From assembly GCF_004153455.1 (NCBI RefSeq), contig NZ_SDQE01000019.1:1-42050 (forward strand): a stretch of 42,050 nt of DNA, given 5' to 3'. The notes below the pieces were generated by a model. That model ran no database searches. It was not told where the DNA came from and was given only the letters and a program-made list of their open reading frames with translations. This DNA is from Allopusillimonas ginsengisoli (lineage in GTDB: Bacteria > Pseudomonadota > Gammaproteobacteria > Burkholderiales > Burkholderiaceae_B). Below, one piece after another: positions 25,946-42,050 of this stretch (the first letter of the stretch is position 1; every line of letters starts with the position of its first letter). The translations under genes were made by a program, and so were the position numbers.

Positions 25946-26000
25946 GTTGTCTCCTGTTCGCACCAGTTCATGCGAAGTCTCTTTGCTTGTTGGGTTGGTT

Positions 26001-26027
26001 AGTATAAGGCCGTTGCGCCCGCATCAA
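26001..26027 (-). promoter_or_regulatory. Possible sigma-70 promoter of the liv-type operon
   Basis: Read on the minus strand: TTGATG (26027-26022), 15 nt, then TATACT (26006-26001), about 55 nt before the binding-protein start. The boxes are good but the spacing is shorter than the ideal 17. No other promoter-like pair is as good in the 240-nt gap to yidC. Confidence 0.35.
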
Positions 26028-26107
26028 GCCTTCGCGACAGCAACATTCGGCTAGACGCTAAATTACATTAAGCCTAAAGCTTTTGCTATCGGGAATAACC
26101 CAATGAG

Positions 26108-26141
26108 AAGAGCCCTTCATGTTATTGCATGAAGGGCTCTT
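26108..26141. terminator. Perfect 14-bp hairpin after yidC
   Basis: AAGAGCCCTTCATG (26108-26121) and CATGAAGGGCTCTT (26128-26141) with loop TTATTG. It lies 48 nt beyond the yidC stop, between yidC and the liv-type operon. No clear U-run on either side, so termination efficiency is uncertain. Confidence 0.6.
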
Positions 26142-26188
26142 GGTGGAACAGGCGACGGCCAGGCCGCTGGCCGGTGTCGCGCAGGCGC

Positions 26189-27886
26189 TCAACGGGCCGC
26201 GGCGGCGGTTTCCTTGTCGAGCTTATGCATGATGTAGCGCTGCTGTGCAATGGATACGGCGTTGTTGACACACCAGTACAGCACCAGGCCGGCCGGGAAG
26301 AAGAACATCATGCCGCCAAAGACCAGTGGCATGATCATCATGATCTTGGCCTGGGTCGGATCGGGTGGTGTCGGGTTCAGCTTGATCTGCAGGAACATCG
26401 TCGCCATCATGATGGCCGGCAGAATGAACCACGGGTCACGCACAGACAGGTCGTGGATCCAGAGTATCCAGGGGGCGCCGCGCATCTCGACACTGCCCAG
26501 CAACACCCAGTACAAGGAAATGAATACGGGAATCTGCACCACCATGGGCAGGCAGCCACCCAGCGGGTTGATTTTTTCGGTGCGGTACATCTCCATCATG
26601 GCCGCGTTGAGCTTGGCCTTGTCGTCGCCGAATTTGTCGCGCAGGGCCTTCATGCGCGGGCCAACCTGCTTCATCTTGGCCATCGAGCGATAGCTGGCGG
26701 CCGACAGCGGGTAGAACACAAGCTTGATCAGCAGCGTGAGTACGACAATGGTCCAGCCCCAGTTGCCCAGCACGCTGTGTATCCAGGTCATGATTTTGAA
26801 CAGGGGCTTGGCAATAATGGTTAGCCAACCATAGTCGACCACCAGCTCCAGCCCAGGCGCGAGGGCGCTCATGGCCTTCTGGTCCTGCGGGCCAACCCAC
26901 AGATGGGAATCGACCGTTACATTCTGGCCGGGCTGCAGGGTGCCCATCGACTCGATGCTGCGGATGGCATAAAGATTGTTGGACAGGTGCAACGCTTCGT
27001 TGTGGCGCACGGTGCCCTCGGGCGGCACCCAGGCGGTGGCGAAGTAGTGCTGCACCATGCCTATCCAGCCATTGTCCGCCTGCTTGGTATAGCTGGCTTT
27101 GCCCTTGTCGATATCCTTGAAGGCGACTTTCTGGAACTTGTCGTCTGCCGAATACAGGGCGGCGCCGGTAAAGGTGCGGTAGAACGGAGAGGAGTCGCCT
27201 GGTTCGCTGTCGTCGCGCGTGAGCTGCAGATACAGCGAGGGCGACACAGGCGCGGCGCCTTGGTTGAAGACGTCGTGGCGCACGTCGATGTCATAGCGGC
27301 CACGGTGCAGGGTGTAGGTCTTGACGACCTTGACGTTGCCAGACTGCGCTTCGAAGATCACGTCCAGCTTGTCGCCAGTGAGCGAACGTTCGGTGGACAC
27401 CAGCTTGAACGGCGTCAGGTGCGTGGGGAAGCTTTCGCCGGCAGGCGCGCCGACGATGCCGCTTTGTGCCAGATAGGTCGACGTTGCGGAGTCGTCCAGC
27501 AAGACCATGGGCTGGCCGTTGTTGTCGGTGTCCGAATAGTGCAACAGCTCGGCTCGCACAAGCTGGGCGCCCTGCGTGTCGAATGTCAGGTTATAGACAT
27601 CGGTGCTGATGTGGATCTTTTCGGAGGTGGCGGCAGGCTGGCTGTTGTCTGGCACATGCGCATCGCCCGCAGTCTGGGCGGCGCGGGGTTGCGCTTGCTG
27701 AACCGCAGCGGGAATGCTGGTGTCTGCCGCCGGCTGCGCAGGGGATGCGTTGTTGGCATCAGCTTGTTGGGCAGCAGGCGTGGGGCCGAAAAGCGAGGCC
27801 TTGCCGTTGTGCACCTGCCAGTTGTTCCACAGCAGCAAGAGCGAGAGAGAAAAAATCATCCAGAGGATGGTACGTCGGATGTCCAT
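26189..27886 (-). CDS. yidC: Membrane protein insertase YidC
   Basis: YidC inserts and folds inner-membrane proteins, alone or with SecYEG. The 565-aa product has the N-terminal membrane anchor (MDIRRTILWMIFSLSLLLLWNNW), an Ala/Gln-rich linker at about residues 35-90, a large periplasmic domain, and the C-terminal conserved core. The core has WTIVVLTLLIKLVFYPLSAASYRSMAKM and GCLPMVVQIPVFISLYWVLL. The core loop contains the conserved positively charged residues, and the last helices include FFFPAGLVLYWCVNN. Length and motifs are typical of Gram-negative YidC. It is downstream of yidD on the same strand. mnmE, commonly next, is displaced. Confidence 0.97.
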   Translation of the reverse strand: MDIRRTILWMIFSLSLLLLWNNWQVHNGKASLFGPTPAAQQADANNASPAQPAADTSIPAAVQQAQPRAAQTAGDAHVPDNSQPAATSEKIHISTDVYNLTFDTQGAQLVRAELLHYSDTDNNGQPMVLLDDSATSTYLAQSGIVGAPAGESFPTHLTPFKLVSTERSLTGDKLDVIFEAQSGNVKVVKTYTLHRGRYDIDVRHDVFNQGAAPVSPSLYLQLTRDDSEPGDSSPFYRTFTGAALYSADDKFQKVAFKDIDKGKASYTKQADNGWIGMVQHYFATAWVPPEGTVRHNEALHLSNNLYAIRSIESMGTLQPGQNVTVDSHLWVGPQDQKAMSALAPGLELVVDYGWLTIIAKPLFKIMTWIHSVLGNWGWTIVVLTLLIKLVFYPLSAASYRSMAKMKQVGPRMKALRDKFGDDKAKLNAAMMEMYRTEKINPLGGCLPMVVQIPVFISLYWVLLGSVEMRGAPWILWIHDLSVRDPWFILPAIMMATMFLQIKLNPTPPDPTQAKIMMIMPLVFGGMMFFFPAGLVLYWCVNNAVSIAQQRYIMHKLDKETAAAAR

Positions 27887-28010
27887 AGCGCCTGTTTCGA
27901 GTTGAAGCCGAGCAAAAGCTCAACAGTTTAACGTAGCTCAGCTGAATCCAGATTGAGCGTAAGCGGAGCGAATAAACCGGTGCAGTCTTATCCCGCTTTC
28001 TGGCGGGATT

Positions 28011-28292
28011 TCAGGGCTGCTCCGGTGGATGCGGCGTGGCCGGACTGGCTGCACTGGCCCGGCCTGTGTTGCTGCGTGCTGGCGGTACGGGATCATGCCC
28101 GCCCCGGCACCATGGGTGGCAGCGCCCGATGCGGCACACGCCCAGGTACAGGCCCTTGGCGGCCCCATGCGTTTCTATGGCCTCTATCGTGTAGGCCGAA
28201 CAGGTGGGTGTGAACCTGCATCCGTGGCCAACCCAGGGGCTCAGAAAGTACCGGTAGAACCGGATGGGAGCGATGAGAAGTGCGCGTATCAT
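28011..28292 (-). CDS. yidD: Membrane protein insertion efficiency factor YidD
   Basis: A small membrane-associated protein of 93 aa that assists membrane protein insertion. The conserved block runs from [23 protein letters not shown] through [32 protein letters not shown], with the family cysteines all present. The ATG at 28292-28290 overlaps the rnpA stop (ATGA), so translation is coupled. The last 25 or so residues (Pro/Ala-rich) are a variable tail. A longer upstream extension in frame is a shadow of rnpA and is rejected. Confidence 0.93.
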
Positions 28293-28654
28293 TGCGCCGC
28301 CTTGTCCAGAAGTGCGTCGGCCTCGAGGCGAACCTGCTTTTTGAGCTGGGTCAGCGTGACGGGGCCAATGCGCGAGTGTAGCCTGAAGACGAGGTCGCGT
28401 TCGGGCAGCAGGTGCTTTTTTTGCCGAAATGCCTCGCGCAGCACCCGCTTGATGGCGTTGCGCGTAACGGCGCGCGCGGCAAATCGCTTGGCGATAATGA
28501 GGCCCAGCCGTGAGCCTTGCCCTTCGAGTGCGTCGTTGCCGCGCGGCGTCATGACAACGAACAAAGCCCCTCTGGCAAGCCGCCGGCCCTTCAGGGCCGA
28601 TGCGTACTCGGAGGGGCGATGCAGGCGTGCCGCAGCGGGAAATGTGGCGCGCAT
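28289..28654 (-). CDS. rnpA: Ribonuclease P protein component
   Basis: Protein subunit of RNase P, which matures the 5' ends of tRNAs. From the ATG at 28654 ([21 protein letters not shown]) it is 121 aa. The RNA-binding signature [29 protein letters not shown] (residues about 57-85) is clear; relatives usually have AKKx in place of AKRF. The gene lies 55 nt after rpmH, shares its transcript as usual, and overlaps yidD by 4 bases. Confidence 0.95.
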
Positions 28655-28709
28655 CGTAGCGGTAAGGCCAGCGGCGCATGTCCGGCTGGCTGCCCGGGCA
28701 GCGACTGGC

Positions 28710-28844
28710 TTAGACGGCCAGTTGCTTGCGGCCCTTGGCACGGCGCGCATTGATAACGGCACGGCCGCCGCGGGTTTTCATGCGGACACGAAAACCGTGA
28801 GTGCGCTTGCGGCGGGTAACTGAAGGTTGGAATGTGCGTTTCAT
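28710..28844 (-). CDS. rpmH: 50S ribosomal protein L34
   Basis: The 44-aa product starts [20 protein letters not shown] and ends [12 protein letters not shown], a textbook L34. It is highly basic, as required for binding 23S rRNA. It heads the rpmH-rnpA-yidD-yidC cluster, divergent from dnaA across a 197-nt spacer, the classic arrangement near bacterial origins. Confidence 0.98.
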
Positions 28845-29041
28845 GGTTGATCCAGATTAAAAGAACGGCCCGCAGCGTATATTCGGCGCTGCCCCGGCGG
28901 GTTGAAAATTCGGTGTCAAGCCCGCCATTTCATCAAATTTTTATAGTTTAGTCAAATGGTTAGCACAGAATAACGTGCAGTTTCATATTCAGGCTTGTGG
29001 ATAACTAGGGCCTCGACAGGGTAGAATCGAGGTTTACCGAA
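28845..29041. other. rpmH-dnaA intergenic region with one consensus DnaA box (origin-proximal)
   Basis: The 197-nt spacer holds an AT-rich stretch at 28930-28975 and a perfect DnaA box, TGTGGATAA at 28996-29004 (TTATCCACA on the minus strand), 37 nt upstream of the dnaA start. One box fits dnaA autoregulation. A full oriC normally has several clustered boxes, which I do not see here, so the replication origin may lie elsewhere nearby. Confidence 0.65.
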
Positions 29042-30469
29042 GTGACCGATATGAAAGATTTCTGGCAGACCTGCGTCCAGCGTCTGGAGCAGGACCTACC
29101 TCCGCAACAAATTAGCGCCTGGATACGCCCTCTTGTACCCGTTGCGTTCGATGAAGCGCAGGCGGTGCTGCGGGTGTCTGCGCCCAATCGGTTCAAGCTC
29201 GATTGGGTGCGCAAGAACTTCTCGCACGAAATCGAGCGCCTGGCGTCCGAGTGGTACGAACGGCCCGTGCAGGTTTCGTTCGAGCTGGCCAGTGCGTCCG
29301 GCGGCATCCATCGTGGCGCCGCCCCCACGCGGTCCGGCGCCGCGCCGCTGTCCGTTGGCTCGCCCCCTGCACCGGTGTCTGCGCCTGCTGTGGCCAACCC
29401 GGGCGCCGCTGCCGCGGCCAACGCGGCGGCCGAAGCGGCCAATGACCGTTCCCGGCTCAATACCGACCTGACCTTCAAGAACTTCGTCACCGGCAAGGCC
29501 AATCAGCTCGCGCGCGCTGCTGCGCTGCAGGTCGCCGAAAACCCCGGCGTGTCCTACAACCCGCTCTTCTTGTACGGCGGCGTGGGCCTGGGCAAAACCC
29601 ACCTGATCCACGCCATTGGGAATGCGCTGGTCGCCAATGGCACTGGCAAGCGTGTGCGCTACGTGCACGCCGACCAGTACGTCTCCGATGTGGTCAAGGC
29701 CTATCAGCGCAAGGCCTTCGACGAATTCAAGCGTTATTACCATTCGCTGGATCTGCTGCTCATTGACGATATCCAGTTTTTCGCCGGCAAGAACCGTACC
29801 CAGGAAGAATTCTTCTACGCGTTCGAGGCGATGGTGGCTCAGCGCAAGCAGATCATCATCACGTCGGATACGTATCCCAAAGAGCTGTCCAACATCGACA
29901 GCCGCCTGATCTCGCGTTTCGATTCCGGCCTCACGGTAGCCATTGAGCCGCCCGAGCTCGAGATGCGCGTGGCCATTCTGCTGCACAAGGCCTCATCAGA
30001 AGGCGTCAGCATGCCCGAGGAAGTCGCCTTCTTCATTGCCAAGCATCTGCGCAGCAACGTGCGCGAGCTCGAGGGCGCGCTGCGCAAGGTGTCCGCCTAC
30101 GCGCGCTTTCATGGCCGCGAAGTGCTCACGGTCGATGTATGCAAGGACGCGCTCAAGGATTTGCTGTCGGTCTCTAATGGACAGATCACCGTCGAGAACA
30201 TCCAGAAGACGGTCGCCGACTTCTACAAGATCAAGGTGGCCGATATGTATTCCAAACGCCGGCCCGCCAATATTGCCATGCCCCGCCAGGTCGCCATGTA
30301 CCTGGCCAAGGAGCTTACCCAGAAAAGCCTGCCCGAGATCGGCGATTTATTCGGCGGGCGGGATCACACCACCGTATTGCACGCGGTGCGTAAAATCGCC
30401 AATGCCCGGTCCAAGCAAACCGAGCTTAACCACGCCCTTCACGTACTAGAACAAACCCTGAAAGGATAA
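29042..30469 (+). CDS. dnaA: Chromosomal replication initiator protein DnaA
   Basis: DnaA binds DnaA boxes and opens the origin. The 475-aa product has domain I (residues 1-80, [21 protein letters not shown]), an Ala/Pro-rich linker domain II (about 85-135), and the AAA+ domain with Walker [10 protein letters not shown] (179-187) and Walker [11 protein letters not shown] (238-247). The domain IV DNA-binding signature is [15 protein letters not shown] (about 437-451). The GTG at 29042 has GAGG 9 nt upstream; an ATG 9 nt later (29051) is a possible alternative start. dnaN follows after 2 nt. Confidence 0.97.
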
Positions 30470-30471
30470 TC

Positions 30472-31581
30472 ATGCAACTCGTACAAGCGACTCGCGATGA
30501 AGTGCTCAAACCGTTGTCGACGGTGGCGGGTATCGTCGAACGTAGGAACACGTTGCCGATACTTGCCAATATCCTGTTGCGCAAGGAAGGCAACAGCGTG
30601 GCTTTCATCGCAACCGACCTTGAAGTCCAGATCACGACGCATGCCGGATTCGGCGTCGGCGACGACAACGAGTCCACCACAGTCGCTGCGCGCAAGCTGC
30701 TCGATATCCTGCGCGCCCTGCCCGACACCTGCGATGTAAAACTGGCTTTGGCCTCGGCCAAGCTTTCGGTGCAGTCCGGCAAAAGCCGGTTCGCCCTGCA
30801 GACCATGCCCGCGCCCGAATTCCCCATTTTGGCCCAGCCCGAAAAATGGGACGTTTCGTTTTCGCTGCCGCAAAAGGCGCTCAAGCATCTGTTCAATTCG
30901 GTGCACTTTGCCATGGCGCAACAGGACATCCGCTACTACCTGAACGGCCTGCTTTTTGTGTTTGAGCCAGGCTTTGTGCGCGCGGTTGCGACCGATGGCC
31001 ACCGCCTTGCCCATAGCGGCACGGCGGTCGAGGGCATCGAGAGCAAGCACGATGTCATCGTGCCGCGCAAGACAGTGCTCGAAATGCAGCGTCTGCTGGC
31101 CGATACCGAAGATCCTGTTTCCATCGATGTGGCCACGGGCCAGATCCGGTTCCGCTTTGGCGATGTCGAGCTGGTCTCCAAGCTGGTCGAAGGCAAATTC
31201 CCCGACTTCACCCGGGTCATTCCCAGCAACTATACGCGCCACTTCTCGGTCAATCGCGACGAGCTGCAGGGAGCACTGCACCGCGCCGCCATTCTCACCA
31301 CCGACAAGCTCAAGGGCGTGCGGGTGCAGTTGTCCGACAACCTGCTCAAGATTTCTTCCTCCAACGCCGAGCAGGAAGAGGCGCAGGAAGAAATCGACAT
31401 CGATTATGCGCACGAGGCGCTCGATGTCGGTTTTAACGTCAGCTACCTGCTCGATGTGCTGGCCAACGTCAAAACCGACAGCGTGCAATGGTCCGTGCAG
31501 CCCGATGTCAATGCGTCCGCGCTCATTACATCGCCCGACGACGACCAGTTCAAATACGTTGTGATGCCGATGCGTATCTAA
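30472..31581 (+). CDS. dnaN: DNA polymerase III subunit beta (sliding clamp)
   Basis: DnaN is the ring-shaped clamp that tethers polymerase III to DNA. The 369-aa product starts MQLVQATRDEVLKPLSTVAGIVERRNTLPILANIL and ends FKYVVMPMRI, both diagnostic. Three-domain length is normal. A motif for clamp opening and partner binding, including the C-terminal MPMR(I/L) end, is intact. It follows dnaA by 2 nt and gyrB comes 95 nt downstream. Confidence 0.97.
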   Translation: MQLVQATRDEVLKPLSTVAGIVERRNTLPILANILLRKEGNSVAFIATDLEVQITTHAGFGVGDDNESTTVAARKLLDILRALPDTCDVKLALASAKLSVQSGKSRFALQTMPAPEFPILAQPEKWDVSFSLPQKALKHLFNSVHFAMAQQDIRYYLNGLLFVFEPGFVRAVATDGHRLAHSGTAVEGIESKHDVIVPRKTVLEMQRLLADTEDPVSIDVATGQIRFRFGDVELVSKLVEGKFPDFTRVIPSNYTRHFSVNRDELQGALHRAAILTTDKLKGVRVQLSDNLLKISSSNAEQEEAQEEIDIDYAHEALDVGFNVSYLLDVLANVKTDSVQWSVQPDVNASALITSPDDDQFKYVVMPMRI

Positions 31582-31661
31582 GGCGTTTCCTGCTTCACGC
31601 GCCACGGGCGCCGGGCCTCCTGTCCGGCGTATCTGTGCAGCCGCCCGTCAGGTTTATATAA

Positions 31662-34127
<2,466 letters not shown>

Positions 34128-34129
34128 GC

Positions 34130-34135
34130 GTGTTG
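34130..34135 (+). repeat. Left flanking direct repeat (GTGTTG), probable target duplication
   Basis: GTGTTG here matches GTGTTG at 40153-40158. With the left end set at 34134 the clean duplication is 4 bp (GTGT); set at 34135 it is 5 bp (GTGTT), the size made by Tn7-type transposases. A one-base loss at the left tip would reconcile both. Confidence 0.55.
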
Positions 34136-34145
34136 TAGGTGAAGG

Positions 34146-34181
34146 CATAAGCTGAGAATTTGAGGCCCATAAGTTGAGAAA
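34146..34181 (+). repeat. Left-end transposase-binding-like repeats L1 and L2
   Basis: CATAAGCTGAGAAT at 34146-34159 and CATAAGTTGAGAAA at 34168-34181; spacing start to start is 22 bp. They face the same way as the terminal repeat and match the CATAANNTGAGAA consensus of the right end. Confidence 0.8.
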
Positions 34182-34247
34182 CTAATGGGTCTCTTGTTTT
34201 TGATTGATGTCTTCCATACTCCTTGAGGTAAGCAAAGGGAATCATAG

Positions 34248-34743
34248 ATGGCTAGCCAAAAACACATTTGCCAAACGAGTCTGCGCTTTATATCTGGAGG
34301 CCAAAACAGGAGCAGATCGGGCTGCACTGGACTTTGCTATCGAGCATGGCTACCCGCATGGTGGCTGGAACCCACGAGGGCGTGAAGCAGAAGATGGCAC
34401 AATTCCACTGAAATACCAACGCACAGAACTGGTTGACGGCGGATATCGCCAACGTAATAAGCATAATGTTGGGGATAGTAATGGCACGTTGGTCATTAAT
34501 ACTGGCGAGCTCGACGGTGGAACCTTGGCAATTCAAGTATTTGCCCAGATGCAGCAGAAGGCGTACTTTCTTGCCCAGGTTGATACCCACTCGCTGGAAT
34601 CTTTGGCGTTGGAGATTGCTGAGTGGCTACGTATCCATAACATTCGAGTGCTCAACGTGGCAGGTCCAAGGGAGAGCAAAAGGCCGGGGATCTATGCCAT
34701 CACGCGTGAGCTGCTAGAGCTTGCCTATGCTGTAAGTAAGTAG
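34248..34743 (+). pseudogene. YpsA-like 'putative molybdenum carrier' protein, frameshifted in its GGQTGADR motif
   Basis: The natural start is the ATG at 34248 (AAAGGGA 8 nt upstream), reading MASQKHICQTSLRFISGGQ. The family motif GGQTGADRAALD then breaks. An extra A in the AAAA run at 34303-34306 (CCAAAACAGG, where CCAAACAGG is expected) shifts the frame, and TGADRAALDFAIEHGYPHGGW continues in the next frame to the TAG at 34741-34743. The remainder is intact: PRGREAEDGTIPLKYQ, VGDSNGTLVINTGELDGGT, VLNVAGPRESKRPGIY. The family (PF12694, Rossmann/SLOG-like fold) is thought to bind nucleotides or cofactors. A start upstream in the second frame (TTG 34204) is an artefact. It could be a sequencing error or a slippage-switched gene. 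Confidence 0.8.
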
Positions 34744-34855
34744 GCTCAAGCAAGCAGGGGAACCGTCCTATACTGGGTACTGAACAACCAATATGGTGAT
34801 TAACCATGTGGCATTGCATGAATGGCAAAATGCCTTACTTCATAGGAGCCCCTGA

Positions 34856-35160
34856 TTGGGCAACGCCCGTTATCGAGAATGGAAAACAGGCGTTACGAAG
34901 TTTGCCACCGTAGATGAATTAACAGAGTTCCTGGATGGGGCTTGGGTCATTAAGGCCAGTCGAGAATGGGTGAGCGACGAGGGCTGGATAGATTGGAGCG
35001 GTGGGGAGTGCCCCCTGAAAGATGGCGATGTAGACGTCTAGTTACGTGGTGGTGACAAGATTTGGCACTAGCAACCCACTCAAGCGGGTGGTACGAGTCA
35101 GTGTTGAAATCATGAGGATGGTTTCGGGGTTGCCTGCGATCCAATAAGGAACTAGTTTAG
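34856..35160 (+). pseudogene. Decayed small phage-type protein with several in-frame stops
   Basis: The frame reads TKFATVDELTEFLDGAWVIKA, then GWIDWSGGECPLKDGDVDV, a stop (35039-35041), and then in the same frame LRGGDKIWH, stop, QPTQAGGTSQC, stop, NHEDGFGVACDPIRN. The pattern W-x-GGECPV...V-V-LRDGD...W-x-HxDxxxDIIAYR is common in small phage and plasmid proteins of unknown role, and the pieces stay in register across the stops. Point mutations (for example TGG to TGA) explain the breaks. The 5' end is unclear; an overlapping frame from the ATG at 34806 may be its shifted start. Similarity is from memory of the pattern, so confidence is modest. Confidence 0.45.
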
Positions 35161-35210
35161 CTCTGTGTCAGTTCCTGAGTAATGGGAATTCATTCATGAA
35201 CGACCTAGCG

Positions 35211-36053
35211 CTATCGTGCAGATTGTCTTCGAGGAATGTATGAGCCATGCTCGTTGTATTTTCGGTCGATATTCCAATCAGGGCCAACCTCAAACATCGA
35301 TGACTCTAGATAGAGTAGGACAAGCGCTGTACCTCCCGTACTAATGAGGCATTGTTCCTGAACCTCATACTCGCCAGCGTCATTATTTCTAAACCAGACA
35401 TTTGCGGGTTGTTTCCTCAGCCCTGGACATTCAGTACCGTAATGGAGTAAGTCGTAGGTAAAGGAGTCTTCGTCTAGTTCCTCTTTTAGGCGCCAGCGTG
35501 TTGGAATATCTTGGGCAGGAATCGCCCAACGTTTTCCATTACGGTCATAGCAAGCAACGATGACTGGCTGCGTATTAACGTCGGCTAAGCGCAATGTGGT
35601 GGTCAGTATGCTTGTCTCAAAATCATGGGCAACATTTATCAGCTGTTGAAATGTTGGTGTGCCGAATGATTTGATCACTGGATTAAATAGCGGTCTAGGA
35701 AGCAATAGATGCGCCGCAAAACTATCCGCTTCTCTCTCCAAAGATCGGTCAGCTGACAAGTTGGTTTCAGGATCATCCACACGGCACCTAAAAGAGCGTC
35801 CTCGATGTAGATGCCAATGCCCAAGTTCATGAGCCACGGAAAATCGCTCGCGACCGCGTACCCCTGATGGGTTGATGGTGGCGATGGCACGATGACGGTA
35901 ACCCACTAGAGACGCCTCACACCCCTTCATAGGTTCATAGACAACTTCAACTTGAGAGTCGAACGCGATGGCTTCGATGTCCAGCTCTTCGGGCCTACTG
36001 ATGCCTAGATCTACGATCAATGCTTCCGCGCGCTCTCCAACGATCGCTGTCAC
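35211..36053 (-). CDS. ImmA/IrrE family metallo-endopeptidase
   Basis: Zinc peptidase of the ImmA/IrrE (DUF955) family. Known members cut a partner repressor in response to damage or phage signals, such as ImmA acting on ImmR, or IrrE/PprI acting on DdrO. The 280-aa product has the zinc motif HELGHWHLH (H75, E76, H79) after RERFSVA. The downstream acidic helix LEREADSFAAHLLLP (about 105-119) supplies the third ligand, which is the family pattern. The C-terminal 130 residues are a separate sensor-like domain of unknown type. Its ATG overlaps the upstream gene's stop by 4 bases, making it the last gene of a coupled three-gene operon. Confidence 0.88.
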   Translation of the reverse strand: MTAIVGERAEALIVDLGISRPEELDIEAIAFDSQVEVVYEPMKGCEASLVGYRHRAIATINPSGVRGRERFSVAHELGHWHLHRGRSFRCRVDDPETNLSADRSLEREADSFAAHLLLPRPLFNPVIKSFGTPTFQQLINVAHDFETSILTTTLRLADVNTQPVIVACYDRNGKRWAIPAQDIPTRWRLKEELDEDSFTYDLLHYGTECPGLRKQPANVWFRNNDAGEYEVQEQCLISTGGTALVLLYLESSMFEVGPDWNIDRKYNEHGSYIPRRQSAR

Positions 36054-36445
36054 CTATCATCTCCGTCCCTAGTCGATTCTTCAAGGCTTTTGAGTTGCGA
36101 GTACAACGCTATCGCCTCAGTGTCGGACAACTCCCCAAGGTTGCGTGCAGCCAGCGTAAATCTGCTGTCATTAGATGCTTTTTCTAAAAAGAGTCGTGCT
36201 TCTTCTGCTGAAACGTTCTGCAGTGTTGCAGAGGGTTGGGCCATTAGAGCTGCATATCCGGCTTTCGCCGCAGCAAGGCGTGAACGACTAGCTTGCGCCT
36301 TGGCGGCTTTGAGCAGGTCAATCCCCTTGGCTTGTACTGTTTCTGGGTTCAGTCCTTCCAGAATCTGGTCATCGGGAGTCTCGATTAGTTCAGAGACAAA
36401 TGTATCAATGAAGTTGTCAAACTCGTTGCTCGACTTTGTATTCAT
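36050..36445 (-). CDS. Small helical protein of unknown function, between sigma-like and ImmA/IrrE genes
   Basis: Not recognised. The 131-aa product (from the ATG at 36445) is rich in Ala, Glu, Leu and Ser and looks fully helical. Central segment: GIDLLKAAKAQASRSRLAAAKAGYAAL; C-terminal: LGELSDTEAIALYSQLKSLEE. No signal peptide or membrane segment. The start overlaps the sigma-like stop (ATGA) and its own stop overlaps the peptidase start (ATGA). This tight coupling suggests the three products work in fixed proportion. By analogy with ImmA/IrrE systems it could be the peptidase's substrate or an anti-sigma-like partner; this is inference. An ATG 12 nt upstream is an alternative start. Confidence 0.8.
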   Translation of the reverse strand: MNTKSSNEFDNFIDTFVSELIETPDDQILEGLNPETVQAKGIDLLKAAKAQASRSRLAAAKAGYAALMAQPSATLQNVSAEEARLFLEKASNDSRFTLAARNLGELSDTEAIALYSQLKSLEESTRDGDDR

Positions 36446-37026
36446 GTTGATCTCCACTCCGTATCCAGCGCGTTTAGTCGGCGCAGGAGCCGGTTTCGGG
36501 CCGCATCATACTTCTTTTCATCCCATCCTAACGTCTCGCGCGCCTCAGCTCCTCGCATGCCGTCAGCCCAGGTCATGACAAGCAACCCAAGGTCTTCGTC
36601 TCCTCCTAGTGCAGCGTATATCTGAGCTATTTGCTGCTTCCCAGACAATTCATCTTCGGGCGTGGCTGTTACTTTGCCATGGGCTACCGGCGTCCTATCA
36701 TCTTCGTCAGCCTCAAATGCCTCGACGACCACGTGTTGGTCGATAGGACTGACATCATTGTGCTTGCGCGCGTTGCTAGCGATGCTATGCATTACGCCCT
36801 TAAGCACGACAAGAGGATGAAGGTCAGCCGGCCAGACTCGGGTTCCGTCCAACAACCGACACAAAGCTTCTTGCAACAAGTCGTCAGGCGTCCAGCCAAT
36901 TAAACCACCACAGAGAAGCGTTGCGATGGACTCTGCTCGCTTCCAGTCAGCTGGACTTAGGCCCTGAAGGGAAGCCTCTACTTCAGCCTTAGATAAGCGC
37001 TCGTTTGGGCTAGTTATAGCAGACAT
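36442..37026 (-). CDS. Sigma-70-like (ECF-type) DNA-binding protein
   Basis: The 194-aa product has the two-part layout of an ECF sigma factor. Residues about 44-90 resemble region 2 (GWTPDDLLQEALCRLLDGTRVW, then LVVLKGVMHSIASNARKHND). Residues about 130-186 resemble region 4 (KQQIAQIYAALGGDEDLGLLVM, then GMRGAEARETLGWDEKKYDAARNRLLRRLNAL, a helix-turn-helix). An acidic linker (VEAFEADEDD) joins them. Whether it truly recruits RNA polymerase is unknown. The ATG at 37026 has GGGAGG about 10 nt upstream; earlier in-frame starts are rejected. It is divergent from the 314-aa gene across 162 nt and heads the coupled operon with the ImmA/IrrE peptidase. Confidence 0.72.
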   Translation of the reverse strand: MSAITSPNERLSKAEVEASLQGLSPADWKRAESIATLLCGGLIGWTPDDLLQEALCRLLDGTRVWPADLHPLVVLKGVMHSIASNARKHNDVSPIDQHVVVEAFEADEDDRTPVAHGKVTATPEDELSGKQQIAQIYAALGGDEDLGLLVMTWADGMRGAEARETLGWDEKKYDAARNRLLRRLNALDTEWRST

Positions 37027-37188
37027 AGATGGGTTCTCCCTCCCTATGACTCTTGACCACGCCTCGCTGGACGGCCTGGGTGAAAAATATTTCTTTATGC
37101 CGGCGTCCACGGAGCCAGTCTCAGGAGCCCTATCAGATAAGAGGCAGAGTTTCCGCCGCCTCACTTACTTTTATAAGGAACTCTTACG
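37027..37188. promoter_or_regulatory. Shared divergent promoter region of the sigma-like operon and the 314-aa gene
   Basis: The 162-nt gap between two divergent starts must carry both promoters. I see good Shine-Dalgarno sequences on both sides (GGGAGG for the minus operon; AAGGA for the plus gene). No clear operator palindrome was identified by eye. Confidence 0.5.
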
Positions 37189-38133
37189 ATGCAGGTTAAC
37201 AGAAAAACCCGAAATATTACAAAATACATCAAGCATCTCCAGCCGCATGAGCCATACATGCTTGGTCTTGCTATTCAGCATGATATTGAGGCACGCCTGA
37301 AGCCACTTGGCTTTGAGGCTTCACTCATTCCAGGACAGCGTATCTTAGCCTCCACACGTAAGGGGGCAGCATCTCGACGCAACGCTGAGGGCTTCGACAT
37401 TATTCATCGTGACCAACCGATGGAAACGGCATACCGCCAAGCTGTTTGGACTTGGAAGCAGTTTGTTGGCCGTAATGATGTTGAGGAAAAGTCGAAGGTC
37501 GTCGATGTTCCCTATAAGCGCTACCCTCGCACGCGCGTCCAACCTTATAGCGTTGAGATAGAAATCAAAATACGCGAGGACGGTCAGAAATACGTGGTGG
37601 CAGGGTCGTTTACAAATGATGAAGCCAGCGTCGTTATAGCAACCAATACCGCCAACATGTTGTACGAAGTATTTGGTGGCTTTGAAATATTGGATAAGAA
37701 CCTAACCAGCTGGGTCAAAGCACCCATTCATCGATTGCATTGGCAGCTACTGCCTCCAGGCCGTAATCCTTGGGATTCTGCTATTCCCGCCCTTGAAAAA
37801 GTTGTAGAACGTGCCCCTAAAGGAAACCAAGGGGTATTGCGAGCTCGATTATCTGCTGTCGGCGCCAAAGAGCCTGATTTTGTGGCGATAGGCGCTGGGG
37901 GATTTGAGGGATATGTCGTATTCGGTTTCGATCGATTAAAACAGTGCGTCCTGGAATGTCCACAAGTGAATAACGCTACCTATGTACTACCCATGGAATC
38001 TTGGGAGCGTATTGCACAGATGACTAAGGCAGAGATCCTAAACAGTGGGGCGCATACTGCTAGGCTCGTTCATAACAGAGGCTGGTTCAATGAGCTTGAC
38101 TCGGTGTTAAGTGATGATCAAAAGTCTGCGTAG
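37189..38133 (+). CDS. Unrecognised 314-aa protein of the island
   Basis: No family recognised. The ATG at 37189 has AAGGAAC upstream. The soluble, mixed alpha/beta product has no signal or membrane segment. N-terminal third is basic (KTRNITKYIKHLQP; RKGAASRRNAEGFD). A middle region has WVKAPIHRLHWQLLPPGRNPWD (about 182-203). The C-terminal part has VVFGFDRLKQCVLECPQ, YVLPMESWERIAQMTKAEIL and ARLVHNRGWFNEL, which could be a small self-contained domain. It is divergent from the sigma-like/ImmA operon with a shared promoter region, so it may be their regulated target or effector. Codon use and AT content match the island. Confidence 0.75.
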   Translation: MQVNRKTRNITKYIKHLQPHEPYMLGLAIQHDIEARLKPLGFEASLIPGQRILASTRKGAASRRNAEGFDIIHRDQPMETAYRQAVWTWKQFVGRNDVEEKSKVVDVPYKRYPRTRVQPYSVEIEIKIREDGQKYVVAGSFTNDEASVVIATNTANMLYEVFGGFEILDKNLTSWVKAPIHRLHWQLLPPGRNPWDSAIPALEKVVERAPKGNQGVLRARLSAVGAKEPDFVAIGAGGFEGYVVFGFDRLKQCVLECPQVNNATYVLPMESWERIAQMTKAEILNSGAHTARLVHNRGWFNELDSVLSDDQKSA

Positions 38134-38577
38134 TGGGTAAATCGGCCATAGGGGGAAGTCCAAAAGGCCATCGCCTTATGACCGACTATTCCGAAATAGG
38201 TTGTTGAGATCGTTGGAGGTGTGCCGCTGCCCAATGGACAGCGGCGAGGTGGCCTGATTCGTGTGGCGGATTTGGGGCGCCTGGTGGTTGCACAGACGAA
38301 GAAGATGTGAGTTTGCATGCCTAGGAATCTGTGTTGAAAAGGATGAATTCCCGCTGGATTGCTGAAGCTATGGTAACTTTATACGCATACAAATAATTAC
38401 ATATAGTCTTGATGTGCTGGGGTTATCTGTACAGTCATTGCGATGAACTCGTTCAAAGCATCTAAGCTAGATCAGATTTTCTGAGAAGATTGAGTTATGA
38501 AAGTATTGCTAGGTTCGTACGCCATAGGTCACCGCACCGAGAAAACCTAAATACAAATACTTGGGCTGATAAGCACT
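38134..38577. other. 444-nt spacer with a short protein-like fragment
   Basis: No intact gene. At 38203-38310 the plus strand encodes VVEIVGGVPLPNGQRRGGL followed by IRVADLGRLVVAQTKKM and a stop. It reads like the C-terminal end of a lost protein but I cannot name the family. The segment contains the hairpin CCGCTG/CAGCGG (38224-38229, 38239-38244) and is more GC-rich than its surroundings. The rest (38320-38577) is AT-rich and probably includes the promoter of the dGTPase gene. Confidence 0.5.
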
Positions 38578-39927
38578 ATGAATAAAAAAATATGGGAAGA
38601 ACGTAGATTGCCTAGTAAGTTACGAGATCGCGATGTGAGATCGGAATGGGAGCGCGATTACGCTCGTTTGATTCATTCGGCAGCATTTCGGCGTCTACAG
38701 TCCAAAACACAAGTCTTAGGGCTTGGTGAAAGCGATTTTTATCGGACGCGACTTACGCATTCCATGGAAGTTGCTCAGATCGGTGTGGGAATTGTTCGTT
38801 GGCTCAAAAAAAAGCATAAAGATAACGCTGAGATTCAATCGGCCTTGCCTGAAGATGCGCTAATAAGCTCCATTTGTCTTGCTCATGATATTGGGCATCC
38901 ACCATTTGGCCATGGCGGGGAGATCGCTCTCAATATTTGTATGAGGCAGTACGGTGGTTTTGAAGGGAACGGTCAAACATTGCGTATTCTGTCCCGCCTA
39001 GATAAATACACCGACCAATATGGACTCAATCCAACTCGTCGCCTCATTCTGGGAGTTCTGAAATATCCTGCGTCGTATTCAGCGACTGTCGTTGATAGCT
39101 CTTATGGCGATATAAATACGTTTAAGTGGCTCAGCAAAGCAGATGATCACAAGCCCCCAAAGTGTTATTTGGATGATGAGCGGGACGTAGTAAATTGGCT
39201 GTTAGAGACTTTGGATCCCGAGACAAAATCGGCCTTCATAAGTGTCGAACATAAATTTGATCAGAGCACTCAAAAGCGCATTCACAACAAACCAATTCAT
39301 AAAGCATTAGATACGTCTATTATGGAGTTGGCTGATGATATTTCCTATAGTCTGCATGACCTAGAAGACGCAGTTTCGTTGGGTATGGTTACGCGAAAAG
39401 GTTGGGAAAAACATAACGAAGGTGCTGTAGATCTTTTCAAGAACTGCGGTATTGATTACCACGCTTTGTCAGAAGAGTTGTTTGGGGATGAAAGCTATCT
39501 GCGTAAGAATGCAATAGGTGGGTTAGTTAATAAGTTCATTACCAATGCTGTCGTGAGGCCGTCGGCCATGCCACATTCGAAGTGCGAGTTGATAAAGTGG
39601 AATGCGTATATAGACAAGAAGCACGAGGGCTTGCTTGGCCACATATTTAATCTCGTCAGGGATCAGGTTATTAAGAGCTGCAACGTGCAACAGTTGGAGT
39701 TCAAAGGCCAAAAACTTGTGATTGAGCTTTTTGATGCTTTGATTTCCGATCCAGAGAGGCTCTTGCCCGGAAGCACGCTCAAACGCTATGCCGCCGCTGA
39801 AGGTGTTCAACAAAAGCAAGCTCGTGTCATTTGTGATTTTATTGCTGGCATGACAGATGAGTACGCCACTAGGTTATACGAGAAGCTGTTCTACCCGCAT
39901 AAAGGATCAATCTTTGACAAGTATTGA
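38578..39927 (+). CDS. HD-domain deoxyguanosinetriphosphate triphosphohydrolase, anti-phage type
   Basis: The 449-aa product is a dGTPase of the HD superfamily, which cleaves dGTP to deoxyguanosine and triphosphate. It has the opening RDARSEWERDYARLIHSAAFRRLQ-like block (residues 20-40) and the HD metal ligands: H61 in TRLTHSMEVAQIG, H103-D104 in LAHDIGHPPFGHGGE, and D in ELADDISYSLHDLEDA (about 253). GFEGNGQTLRILSRL (about 128-141) is the substrate region. Related dGTPases starve phages by depleting dNTPs (established for defence homologues). Its location in a mobile element with no housekeeping context supports that role here. Length and motifs are complete. A GATGGCA hairpin follows the stop. 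Confidence 0.87.
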   Translation: MNKKIWEERRLPSKLRDRDVRSEWERDYARLIHSAAFRRLQSKTQVLGLGESDFYRTRLTHSMEVAQIGVGIVRWLKKKHKDNAEIQSALPEDALISSICLAHDIGHPPFGHGGEIALNICMRQYGGFEGNGQTLRILSRLDKYTDQYGLNPTRRLILGVLKYPASYSATVVDSSYGDINTFKWLSKADDHKPPKCYLDDERDVVNWLLETLDPETKSAFISVEHKFDQSTQKRIHNKPIHKALDTSIMELADDISYSLHDLEDAVSLGMVTRKGWEKHNEGAVDLFKNCGIDYHALSEELFGDESYLRKNAIGGLVNKFITNAVVRPSAMPHSKCELIKWNAYIDKKHEGLLGHIFNLVRDQVIKSCNVQQLEFKGQKLVIELFDALISDPERLLPGSTLKRYAAAEGVQQKQARVICDFIAGMTDEYATRLYEKLFYPHKGSIFDKY

Positions 39928-39946
39928 TGGCAGTAAAATTGCCATC
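39926..39946 (+). terminator. Hairpin overlapping the dGTPase stop
   Basis: GATGGCA (39926-39932) and TGCCATC (39940-39946), loop GTAAAAT. Stem of 7 bp, no U-run afterwards; possible weak terminator or mRNA-stabilising hairpin. Confidence 0.35.
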
Positions 39947-40049
39947 CAAGTCTGTGTCGATCTCAAAATCATTTGTTCTATTAAACGTGATGGGTGCACC
40001 CTGAAGGCGTGCTGCTGGTTGCGATGAACGATAGCAACTATAGGAAAAA

Positions 40050-40140
40050 ATTCTCACTTTATGGGTACCAAATTCTCAGTTTATGGGTACACTCGTTTTG
40101 TAAGCCATTGATTTTAATAACGCAGGATTCTCATATTATG
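40050..40140 (-). repeat. Right-end transposase-binding-like repeats R3, R2 and R1
   Basis: Read on the minus strand: CATAAAGTGAGAAT (40063-40050), CATAAACTGAGAAT (40085-40072) and CATAATATGAGAAT (40140-40127). R3-R2 spacing is 22 bp, R2-R1 is 55 bp. They are inverted relative to the left pair, each preceded by CC in this orientation (ACCCATAA). Together with the terminal TGTAGGT they make the right end of the element. Confidence 0.82.
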
Positions 40141-40169
40141 GGTTTACCTACAGTGTTGCGTGGAGCATT

Positions 40170-40404
40170 ATGCCCCGCTGGCTACCGTTCTCGTTCGCTA
40201 ATGAAGAGCGTACGGCTCACCCGAAGAAGGGGTCGAAAATTTCGACCTTCGCAGCCCTGGCGGATGCGCGAGCTTGTTAAGCACGCGCAAGAGCTGCCGC
40301 AGGACATTATCATGCATGGCAAATCCGTTGCCGTGATGATTTTGCGCGCGGCATTCGATCATCCGGGCGTTTCGCTCATCAACCCCCGGCATACAGGAAC
40401 TTGA
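40170..40404 (+). pseudogene. Possible Phd/YefM-type antitoxin remnant (frame-shifted)
   Basis: One frame from the ATG at 40170 gives KGSKISTFAALADAR before stopping at 40280. A second frame continues ELVKHAQELPQDIIMHGKSVAVMILRAAFD. Joined, they resemble the order found in Phd/YefM antitoxins (DAR..L.ELV..A...GPQ.I..HGK.VAV....FD). No toxin gene follows. The pieces are short, so this is only a likely remnant. It lies outside the transposon, just after the right end. Confidence 0.4.
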
Positions 40405-40407
40405 AAC

Positions 40408-40824
40408 ATGAAAATCTGGCTGACAGCGATCGCGTTTGCCGCGGCCTCTTCTTTGGCGCAGGCTGCGGATAGCGCCATGACCGTCTATCAGGATCCCAGT
40501 TGCGGCTGTTGTTCCGGCTGGGTCGACCATATGCGGGCGTCTGGCTTTGAGGTAAAAGCCATCGAGACAAGCAATATGGCGGCAGTCAAGCAGAGGCTGG
40601 GCGTGCCGGTGGCGCTGAGCTCTTGCCATACGGGTGTGATCGACGGTACAGGGCAGATTGTGGAAGGGCATGTGCCAGCCAGTGTGGTGCGCAAGCTCCT
40701 GGCGGATGCGTCGGTAAAAGGCGTTGCCGCGCCCGGCATGCCATTGAATGCGCCCGGCATGGGCGAGCTGGATGGCAATCTGGTTACCGTGGATTTTCTG
40801 GGGCAGCCATTTTCCAGGGACTAG
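40408..40824 (+). CDS. DUF411 domain exported metal-binding protein
   Basis: The 138-aa product has a signal peptide (MKIWLTAIAFAAASSLAQA, cleavage after AQA or AQAA) and a DUF411 domain. The domain opens with MTVYQDPSCGCCSGWVDHMR, where the CGCC cysteines are a likely metal site, followed by the invariant SCHTGVIDG and EGHVPASVV. DUF411 proteins often accompany copper or other metal resistance genes and are thought to bind metal in the periplasm. No other metal gene is visible here. The ATG at 40408 has CAGGAAC 8 nt before it. A strong hairpin follows the stop. Confidence 0.9.
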   Translation: MKIWLTAIAFAAASSLAQAADSAMTVYQDPSCGCCSGWVDHMRASGFEVKAIETSNMAAVKQRLGVPVALSSCHTGVIDGTGQIVEGHVPASVVRKLLADASVKGVAAPGMPLNAPGMGELDGNLVTVDFLGQPFSRD

Positions 40825-40884
40825 CCGGCAGCATCGCATCGTGATTGTGTCTGGCAGCGCTGGCATGCTGTCGCAGACCGCTTG

Positions 40885-40914
40885 GCAAGAGGCCGGGTTT
40901 TCCCGGCCTCTTGC
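40885..40914. terminator. Strong hairpin after the DUF411 gene
   Basis: GCAAGAGGCCGGG (40885-40897) pairs perfectly with CCCGGCCTCTTGC (40902-40914), loop TTTT. A 13-bp stem located 60 nt past the stop. There is no long U-run, but stem strength and position suit a terminator. Confidence 0.65.
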
Positions 40915-41180
40915 TATTGGGATAAACAAAACCGAATTTGGATCGACGTCTGGAAACCCGCATTAATTAATGCTTTCAGCGTGCCGCGCTATTGATCTTT
41001 CGCAATACGCAAAAGCTGATTATGTAATAAGCAACTTGCCCGCGCTATACCTTCGTTGCACACTTTTCCCCATTCGACGCCCCGCAATGCGCATGGGCGG
41101 CCAATTCAGGACAGGTGTGAGACAAGGAAAACAGAAATGATTCGATATGAGTCGTGCTGTACCAGCAAGGGCGAGCGGCG
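40915..41180. other. Spacer before the peptide permease
   Basis: No gene recognised in about 265 nt. It is AT-richer around 40955-41040 and must contain the promoter of the permease gene; I could not single out promoter boxes with confidence. Confidence 0.5.
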
Positions 41181-41936
41181 ATGATACAGTGGCTTACCAA
41201 GCGGCTGCTGCAATCAGTGGTTGTCATCCTCTTGATGACCTTGATTGTGTTCATCGGGCTGCATGCGATCGGCGATCCGGTCGATATCCTGATCGGCCAG
41301 GATGTGGATCAGGTCGATCGCGCAAGAATCATCGCTCAGCTGGGGCTGGACCAACCGTTGTGGCGGCAGTATCTGTCGTTTCTTGGCGGGGCGCTCAACG
41401 GCGATCTGGGCAAGAGCTTTGTCTACAACACCCCCGCGATTCCCCTTATTTTGCAGCGCTTTCCCGCTACGCTGGAACTGGCGCTGGCCGCGATGGTGAT
41501 TGCGGTCGTGATCGGTGTGCCGACGGGGCTGATGGTGGGCCTCAAGCCTGAGGCGCCCTTGTCTCGCGCAGTGATGGCAAGCAGCATACTGGGCTTTTCG
41601 CTGCCCACCTTCTGGGTTGGGCTGATGCTGATCATGGCATTCAGTGTGCTGCTGGGCTGGCTGCCGGCCAGTGGGCGCGGCCAGACGGTAGAGTTTCTGG
41701 GTGTGCAGTGGTCCTTCCTGACGTGGGACGGCCTCAAACACATGTTCCTGCCCGCGCTGAACCTGTCCTTGTTCAAGCTTTCGCTGGTGATCCGCCTGAC
41801 CAGCGCCGGCGTGCGCGAAGTGCTGCCGCTGGACTACATCAAGTTTGCGCGCGCCAAGGGATTATCGCCCTTGCGAATTATCGGCGTGCATGTCCTGCGC
41901 AATATTCTGATTCCCCTGGTGACGGTGCTCGGGTAA
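41181..41936 (+). pseudogene. DppB-type peptide ABC transporter permease, cut short by an IS3-family element
   Basis: Inner-membrane permease of the DppB/OppB family. From the ATG at 41181 it reads IQWLTKRLLQSVVVILLMTLIVF, then AQLGLDQPLWRQYLSFLGGALNGDLGKSF and LILQRFPATLELALAAMVIAV. The EAA-like coupling loop DYIKFARAKGLSPLRIIGVHVLRNILIPLVTVLG follows. The product stops at 251 residues with a TAA that belongs to the inserted DNA. Family members are about 310-340 aa and should continue with a further membrane segment containing a GG..LTE.VF.WPG motif. The truncation point coincides with the IS edge. The rest of the operon (DppC, DppD, DppF types) would lie past the IS. Confidence 0.85.
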
Positions 41937-42050
41937 TCCCCCCATTTTTAACGGTCGTTAAAAGTAGAGGCTATGCGGCTAAGGCCATTTTTTGAATTGG
42001 TGTAATGCCGCCCAAGGCCATATTTGGCCTTTCGTTATTGTAAGTCCAGA
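41934..42050 (-). mobile_element. Edge of an IS3-family insertion sequence (runs out of the window)
   Basis: The permease coding sequence breaks at about 41934-41938, where TAATCCCCCCATTTTTAACGG begins. Just inside, the minus strand encodes the end of an IS3-type transposase. The exact terminal repeat cannot be confirmed because the other end is outside the window. Confidence 0.75.
41971..42050 (-). CDS. IS3-family transposase, C-terminal end (partial)
   Basis: On the minus strand the frame reads WTYNNERPNMALGGITPIQK and MALAA, ending at TAG (41973-41971). The motif YNxERPxxALGGxTPxQ is the C-terminus of IS3-family OrfB transposases (DDE, rve-type). Only 25 or so residues are visible. The remaining transposase lies to the right of the window. 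Confidence 0.88.
   Translation of the reverse strand, partial: WTYNNERPNMALGGITPIQKMALAA

Follow-up and report, generated by a model that had tools for sequence, protein, structure and literature searches.

The stretch of DNA analysed here, called the window, comprises 42,050 nucleotides of Allopusillimonas ginsengisoli (contig NZ_SDQE01000019.1). A first-pass annotation had proposed that it holds a transposase-less defence element at 34134–40152, inserted 6 bp past the gyrB stop codon. We found the element at this place, its left tip TGTAGGTGAAGG beginning at 34134, 6 nt past the stop (Table 1). Over 26 bp from the tips, the two ends form an imperfect terminal inverted repeat, with 21 of 26 positions matching. 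The flanks read ...GCGTGT, element, GTGTTGCG..., and of the proposed GTGT/GTGTTG direct repeats the 4-bp GTGT is present on both sides. The G + C content is 48.1% in the element versus 60.3% upstream (25001–34133) and 57.2% downstream (40153–42050), in agreement with the annotated AT-rich interior.

Ends and remnant transposition gene of the window element

The end motif CATAANNTGAGAA occurs without mismatches at 34146 and 34168 on the forward strand and at 40128, 40073 and 40051 on the reverse strand. Counted from the tips, the repeats lie at +13 and +35 in the left end and at +13, +68 and +90 in the right end. All five predicted copies were thus exact. The 22-bp pitch assigned to them applied inside the left pair and the inner right pair; the outermost repeat of the right end lies 55 bp off the inner pair. 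Several transposase-type repeats (two left, three right) in asymmetric ends with 5'-TG tips are a feature of Tn7-like elements.

At one mismatch or less, the window had five matches to the motif against 0.37 expected, and none of 100 shuffled sequences reached five. Five of the six exact copies in the 4.52-Mb genome are within the element, and the reversed-pattern control gave none. The sixth copy (G000:C12:17806; L006 1501) is solitary, with no second repeat in the 3 kb around it.

Seven cargo open reading frames (ORFs) were scanned with Pfam and PADLOC, six of them also with NCBIfam. Among their translations we detected neither a transposase or integrase nor a transposition ATPase, as had been annotated. 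What had been overlooked is a C-terminal tniQ/tnsD relic of about 36 codons. Its frame is open from 38200 to the stop at 38308–38310, and the search matches span 38164–38304 and 38194–38289. The relic had 75% identity over 28 aa with the TniQ of a related element in genome G089 (E 8e-9, window search), and 69% identity in a separate genome search (E 1.3e-7). From the set TnsA, TnsB, TnsC and TniQ, the window element thus retained only this TniQ relic. At the DNA level, a block of ~3 kb, from capP to 38206 at the start of the relic, is 93% identical in G020, a genome from another genus. Elsewhere in the 4.52-Mb window genome (G000) there was no Mu-transpos_C match (three of the nine genomes searched had one), and no relative of the TnsB encoded by elements with the same ends at E 1e-6.

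Table 1 Features of the window around the gyrB-proximal element.
Feature	Position	Strand	Evidence
gyrB	31677–34127	+	ORF; stop codon 34125–34127
Left copy of GTGT flanking repeat	34130–34133		sequence
Left end: TG tip, putative TnsB sites at +13 and +35	34134–34200	+	motif scan
Putative TnsB-binding repeat L1	34146–34158	+	motif scan
Terminator-like hairpin, then T-rich run	34163–34192	+	fold −14.7 kcal/mol, z −3.44; pairing across 36 loci
Putative TnsB-binding repeat L2, within hairpin	34168–34180	+	motif scan, fold
Cargo: circularly permuted YpsA-type (cpYpsA) SLOG protein	34204–34743	+	Pfam PF12694, E 4.7e-45
Cargo: CapP-like IrrE-type metallopeptidase	35211–36053	-	PF06114, E 1.5e-14; PADLOC capP, E 1.7e-58
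Cargo: small protein, weakly CapH-like	36050–36457	-	PADLOC capH, E 1.2e-5
Cargo: possible sigma-factor-like protein	36442–37164	-	only a sub-threshold NCBIfam SigX match, E 0.024
Cargo: 314-aa protein	37189–38133	+	no Pfam, PADLOC or NCBIfam match
Relic of tniQ/tnsD C-terminus, 36 codons + stop	38200–38310	+	BLAST matches, open frame
Cargo: anti-phage dGTPase family protein	38578–39927	+	NCBIfam NF041026, 559.8 bits (cut-off 400); PADLOC dGTPase, E 3.5e-147
Right end: repeats at +13 (tip) and +68/+90 (pair), IHF-like site at +40	40051–40152	-	motif scan
IHF-like site AATCAATGGCTTA	40101–40113	-	sole full-consensus match in the 42 kb of the window, both strands
Right copy of GTGT flanking repeat	40153–40156		sequence

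Relatives with the same ends and their insertion at gyrB

The double left-end motif (35 bp) was scanned exactly across a collection of 84,980 species genomes, for which it proved a ready computational handle. The same left end was found at 52 loci. In 36 of them gyrB precedes it on the same strand, at a distance of 163 nt in one case. The double repeat is common to all 52 loci by construction, and 40 of them also start with TGTAG. The stop pattern was applied to all 52 loci and placed a stop in 34; in 31 of these the tip lies 6, 7 or 8 nt past the gyrB stop. The proposed fixation at the gyrB 3' end was thereby supported, and a fixed site and orientation beside a conserved gene is again found in Tn7-like elements. 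Hosts with a gyrB-adjacent end belonged to Paraburkholderia, Caballeronia, Burkholderia, Ralstonia, Cupriavidus, Robbsia, Hydrogenophaga, Rhodoferax, Giesbergeria, Roseateles, Pelomonas, Castellaniella and Pollutimonas. Among 151 family genomes searched with at most one mismatch, 11, including that of the window, carried the motif at 13 places, nine of them directly after gyrB. BLAST of the left and right ends (106 and 141 bp) against a plasmid collection gave one useful match, in Burkholderia ambifaria (NZ_CP066764); otherwise the right end had short, unrelated-looking matches. At two of the scanned loci, L160 and L177 (Hydrogenophaga, Comamonadaceae), the double repeat follows a AATCAACG-like stretch, like the inner pair of the right end and unlike the left end.

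The annotation had assigned the ends to the Tn7/Mu/Tn552 group and had suggested a search for elements with the same ends that encode the transposition proteins. Other Burkholderiales have such elements at gyrB. Six complete elements of 22–59 kb encode tnsA-tnsB-tnsC-tniQ as an operon and are flanked by perfect 5-bp duplications: G643 (25.9 kb, TCGAA), G654 from Paucibacter sp. TC2R-5 (21.7 kb, ATTTT), G671 from Hydrogenophaga aromaticivorans (31.1 kb, ACCAT), G674 from Burkholderia sp. Ac-20365 (59.2 kb, CGTCT), G678 from Ralstonia sp. A12 (43.4 kb, TCTAG) and G687 from H. palleronii (29.1 kb, CCGAT). The repeat of G643 and G654 is a variant, CATAANNTGGCA-like one. Pfam TniB and TniQ were matched in G089, G112 and G678. 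In G089, an operon of the window type is found ~50 kb past gyrB and is followed by a right end of the same type. In the right-end search (33 genomes, up to three mismatches), the reversed-pattern control gave about as many matches as the pattern, so we kept only second tips with 0–2 mismatches on the same contig, and every accepted tip was then checked by its duplication. Tn7 itself has several transposase sites per end and produces a 5-bp duplication. Because complete relatives with the same ends encode tns genes and have perfect 5-bp duplications, the assignment of the ends can be narrowed to Tn7-like.

TG tips and multiple end repeats are also known in the IS21, Tn5053/Tn402 and Mu-like groups, and for this end layout a derivative of one of them was considered. 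This is very improbable, given that the relatives with the same ends encode a TnsA-TnsB-TniB/TnsC-TniQ operon and are flanked by 5-bp duplications. An IS21 origin was rejected, the relatives carrying TnsA, TnsB, TnsC and TniQ and not istA and istB only. Tn5053/Tn402 elements have no TnsA and have a TniR resolvase; in the relatives, the gene in the TnsA position is similar by BLAST to a TnsA with a PF08722 match.

Seven further two-ended elements had no tns genes, six at gyrB and one elsewhere. At gyrB, these were G083 (4.8 kb, duplication offset by one), G109 (5.6 kb, GGTGT), G013 (3.7 kb, no duplication), G662 from Paraburkholderia silvatlantica (23.3 kb, GTCTG), G688 from Caballeronia arationis (10.1 kb, GTGAG) and G679 from P. 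sejongensis (3.1 kb, GTAGT). The duplications are perfect and 5 bp long in four of these six (G662, G688, G679 and G109). The seventh is a 1.5-kb element with a helix-turn-helix (HTH) gene on the B. ambifaria plasmid, with the duplication CTCAG. A TniQ relic was present in G083, G109 and G013; at E 1e-3, none was detected in G662, G688, G679 or the plasmid element, and the first three had no other tns relic detected. In the TnsB search, which covered 40 genomes of the 52 left-end loci, 12 genomes had a TnsB at E 1e-30 and 28 did not, including G662, G688, G679 and Pollutimonas nitritireducens. PADLOC, run on nine cargo proteins, recognized Wadjet components in the G688 element (L224 1933–8697): JetC and JetD were full-length, the JetA ORF covered half of its profile, and JetB was outside the scan. 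In the G662 cargo it recognized type I restriction, OLD/AriA/GajA-like and PDC-S73 proteins. At gyrB there are derivatives that lack tns genes but have both ends complete and carry defence cargo.

Three more repeat families, known by their left ends, occur directly after gyrB. We named them B (AGTTGGCCA), C (TTTAGATTTTTCCC) and D (CACAATTAGTGAAAA), with the window type as A; these class names were coined here. Tns operons downstream of gyrB in the same orientation accompany type B in G112, G130, G074 and G041, type C in G131 and type D in G095, which has two TniQ; for G131 and G095 the searches recovered TniQ alone, and the remaining tns genes were named from the operon layout. We surveyed 90 family genomes, the 30 best gyrB matches and the next 60, from 146 genomes with a gyrB match. 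A recognisable end type lay within 75 nt of the gyrB stop in 40 of them (B 12, A 10, C 8, D 8, AC 1, AD 1), the AD genome arising from the overlap of the A and D patterns. Markov shuffles gave a mean of 3.2 and a maximum of 8, reversed sequences none, and reverse complements of the distal part two. The survey skipped G144 (contig edge) and 13 genomes already chosen for end, TniQ or element matches, which lowered the share of type A. The first 1,048 bases to the right of the window element yielded no type A–D left-end-like repeat with a tip; one type-A match with three mismatches there was judged to be chance.

Elements were also stacked in tandem. In G109, a type A element is followed by a type C left end. 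In G654 (L174; G654:C41:129504–129561), at gyrB, the order is right end-ATTTTTTT-left end, tip to tip, and in G017 right end-GCGTT-left end. Stacking was also found in G655, G657 has two left ends 152 bp apart, and in G687 a type-D-like tip beyond the right end perhaps marks another tandem. Away from gyrB, two type-A left ends lie ~160 bp apart in L030 (G020:C1, repeats at 337 and 499).

Terminator-like hairpin, IHF-like site and origin of the element

The second left repeat of the window element lies inside a hairpin with T's directly after it. Two other left ends were folded besides that of the window, L142 (z −6.09) and L159 (z −4.75). The hairpin is partly covarying. At the 36 loci next to gyrB, pairing holds in 349 of its 396 cells, versus 113–194 when slid by 1–3. 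The variable pair 10–19 pairs in 32 of the 36 loci, as GC, CG, AT or GT, a value reached by none of 2000 shuffles. We infer that the left-end hairpin serves as gyrB terminator after insertion, probably taking over from the one that the insertion displaces. This suggests a way to sit beside an essential gene, in that the transposon carries with it a terminator overlapping one of its transposase sites.

The hairpin fold, and the presence of the sequence after gyrB in many genera, would also fit a conserved ancestral gyrB terminator that is no transposon end. We rejected this, and consider it extremely improbable, as the same repeats recur inverted in right ends with 5-bp duplications and have copies at non-gyrB loci and on a plasmid. 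Type A is moreover patchy (10 of the 90 surveyed genomes, plus the two doubly classified ones), with other end types at the same position.

Right ends were scored against WATCAANNNNTTR, which we take to be the IHF consensus. The IHF-like site was found at exactly +40 with a score of 9/9 in six of 13 right ends. Two more score 8/9 and 7/9 at the same place, and the other five are without it there. The mean best score in nt 27–75 of the right ends was 7.23, compared with a shuffle mean of 5.67 (maximum 6.23). The site probably bends the DNA, bringing the tip repeat to the inner pair.

We conclude that the window element is very probably a transposase-deleted member of a Tn7-like family that homes to gyrB. 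Its end architecture, site and orientation, the duplications and tns genes of its relatives and the TniQ relic are established at the sequence level. The retained tniQ relic marks the window copy, at least in its history, as derived by deletion from an autonomous element. In the autonomous relatives, TnsA and TnsB would carry out excision and joining, TnsB reading the 13-bp end repeats, with TnsC as AAA+ regulator. By analogy with Tn7, a TniQ/TnsD of ~600 aa would bind the conserved gyrB 3' end and recruit TnsC and TnsAB, resulting in insertion 6–8 nt past the stop, the left end towards gyrB, with a 5-bp duplication. On this reading the copy in the window has shed tnsABC, and tniQ except for ~36 codons; both ends with their five repeats remain, and the dGTPase and a CapP/CapH-like module are carried.

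Several observations weigh against this reading or its parts. Sixteen of the 52 loci with the same type of end had no gyrB in the fetched DNA; one of the 16, L174, is the second element of a gyrB array. The flanking repeat is 4 bp long in the window, versus perfect 5-bp duplications in 11 of the 13 other two-ended elements; of the remaining two, G083 has it offset by one and G013 lacks it. The empty gyrB site that the annotation had expected was not found in the genus, where all five genomes examined carry a Tn7-like left end after gyrB (two of type A, three of type B). The right flank of the window was not found beside gyrB among the matches listed for 268 family genomes; these matches were scattered and mostly to two stretches of the flank. 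Many of the surveyed genomes are drafts. Mu-transpos_C was above the cut-off in G089 and G112 and just below it in the G678 TnsB, and rve was above the cut-off in G112 only and below it in the G678 TnsB. None of the three type-A TnsA tested reached a Pfam family, their identity being based on operon position and on the BLAST similarity of the G089 TnsA to the PF08722-positive TnsA of G112 (E about 1e-10). In the hairpin, the variable pair 11–18 was no better than shuffles (629 of 2000), leaving one of two variable inner pairs significant. A simple terminator scanner did not list the left-end hairpin, so the hairpin claim rests on folding and cross-locus pairing. The full IHF consensus was absent from seven of the 13 right ends.

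There is nearly an even chance that the window copy is a dead remnant, that is, an autonomous element that inserted once and decayed in place, its left end being retained as gyrB terminator. The TniQ relic, the off-length GTGT repeat, the lack of a detected transposase in the window genome and the hairpin pairing across loci point toward this. Two observations argue against decay in place: in the right end, without a terminator role, all three repeats are still exact and the IHF-like site matches the full consensus; and the block from capP to the start of the relic is 93% identical in another genus.

The exact right-end repeats would fit non-autonomous elements with intact ends, moved in trans as satellites by the TnsABC and TniQ of co-resident or incoming relatives, a tentative possibility to which we give well below an even chance. 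G662, G688 and G679 have both ends and perfect duplications at gyrB, with neither a tns relic nor a genomic TnsB at the above thresholds, and the B. ambifaria element sits on a plasmid, off gyrB, with its own duplication. Loss of tns genes after insertion accounts equally well for the same facts, and the window element, G083, G109 and G013 have kept TniQ relics. Further, for no genome were identical tns-less copies shown at two different sites, and the TnsB and Mu-transpos_C searches found no helper in the window genome.

Seen more broadly, gyrB could be shared by at least four Tn7-like lineages, each with its own terminator swapped in at the gyrB-proximal end. Resident ends would become necessary to the host, elements would stack in tandem, and tns-less defence cassettes, the window element among them, would be mobilised in trans as satellites. 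We regard this scenario as rather unlikely.

Known Tn7-like systems and the cargo

Tn7 targets glmS with a TniQ/TnsD-type selector (PMC11406308). The gyrB family resembles it in this selector and in the fixed-orientation insertion at the 3' end of a conserved housekeeping gene. It differs in the site, in the terminator-like hairpin of the gyrB-proximal end and, for the window copy, in the absence of tns genes. The similarity of the related G089 TniQ (613 aa) to solved TniQ/TnsD chains is confined to part of the first 180 residues of this protein. Tn7017/EasCAST, a type I-F3 CRISPR-associated transposon (CAST) with a TniQ-targeted parE site (PMC11406308), also lands at the gene of a type II topoisomerase B subunit, there parE and here gyrB. 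The Tn6022/comM-targeting elements are site-specific Tn7-like elements as well, but insert in comM, using TniQ and a separate TnsF (PMC10293859). The Tn7-like sites named in the accessible text of PMC10293859, PMC8649781 and PMC11406308 are glmS, parE, comM, yhiN and tRNA genes. The annotation knew of no reported element at the gyrB end, and our literature search, with supplements and most subscription papers outside its scope, likewise found no gyrB attachment site for Tn7-like elements. The words gyrB, gyrase and non-autonomous are absent from the main text of PMC8649781, and in the available part of PMC12452197 gyrB is used for phylogeny. The 3' end of gyrB, an essential gene, adds a putative attachment site to the Tn7-like ones named in these papers; it is occupied in about two-fifths of the surveyed family genomes and makes the family a candidate new site-specific insertion system.

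The defence-like nature of the cargo was supported by the dGTPase family and CapP/CapH-like genes (Table 1). dGTPase and ImmA-type genes are likewise listed among the defence cargo of Tn7-like transposons (Benler et al. 2021, PMC8649781), so that these kinds of cargo are shared. The seventh scanned ORF, of 61 aa, had no match. The sigma-like, CapH-like and CapP-like genes overlap on the reverse strand (35211–37164), and no CBASS cyclase was among the scanned cargo. This trio could be a protease-released regulatory switch. The gene for the 314-aa protein sits in the 3-kb block that is 93% identical in G020. In the same genome, L206 1548–12021 (G020:C1) has hsdM/S/R-like, kfrA-like, unknown, capP, capH-like, sigma-like and 314-aa genes in one block. 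Fragments of this gene order recur in the G109 and window elements, which suggests that the three cargoes derive from a common ancestral cargo.

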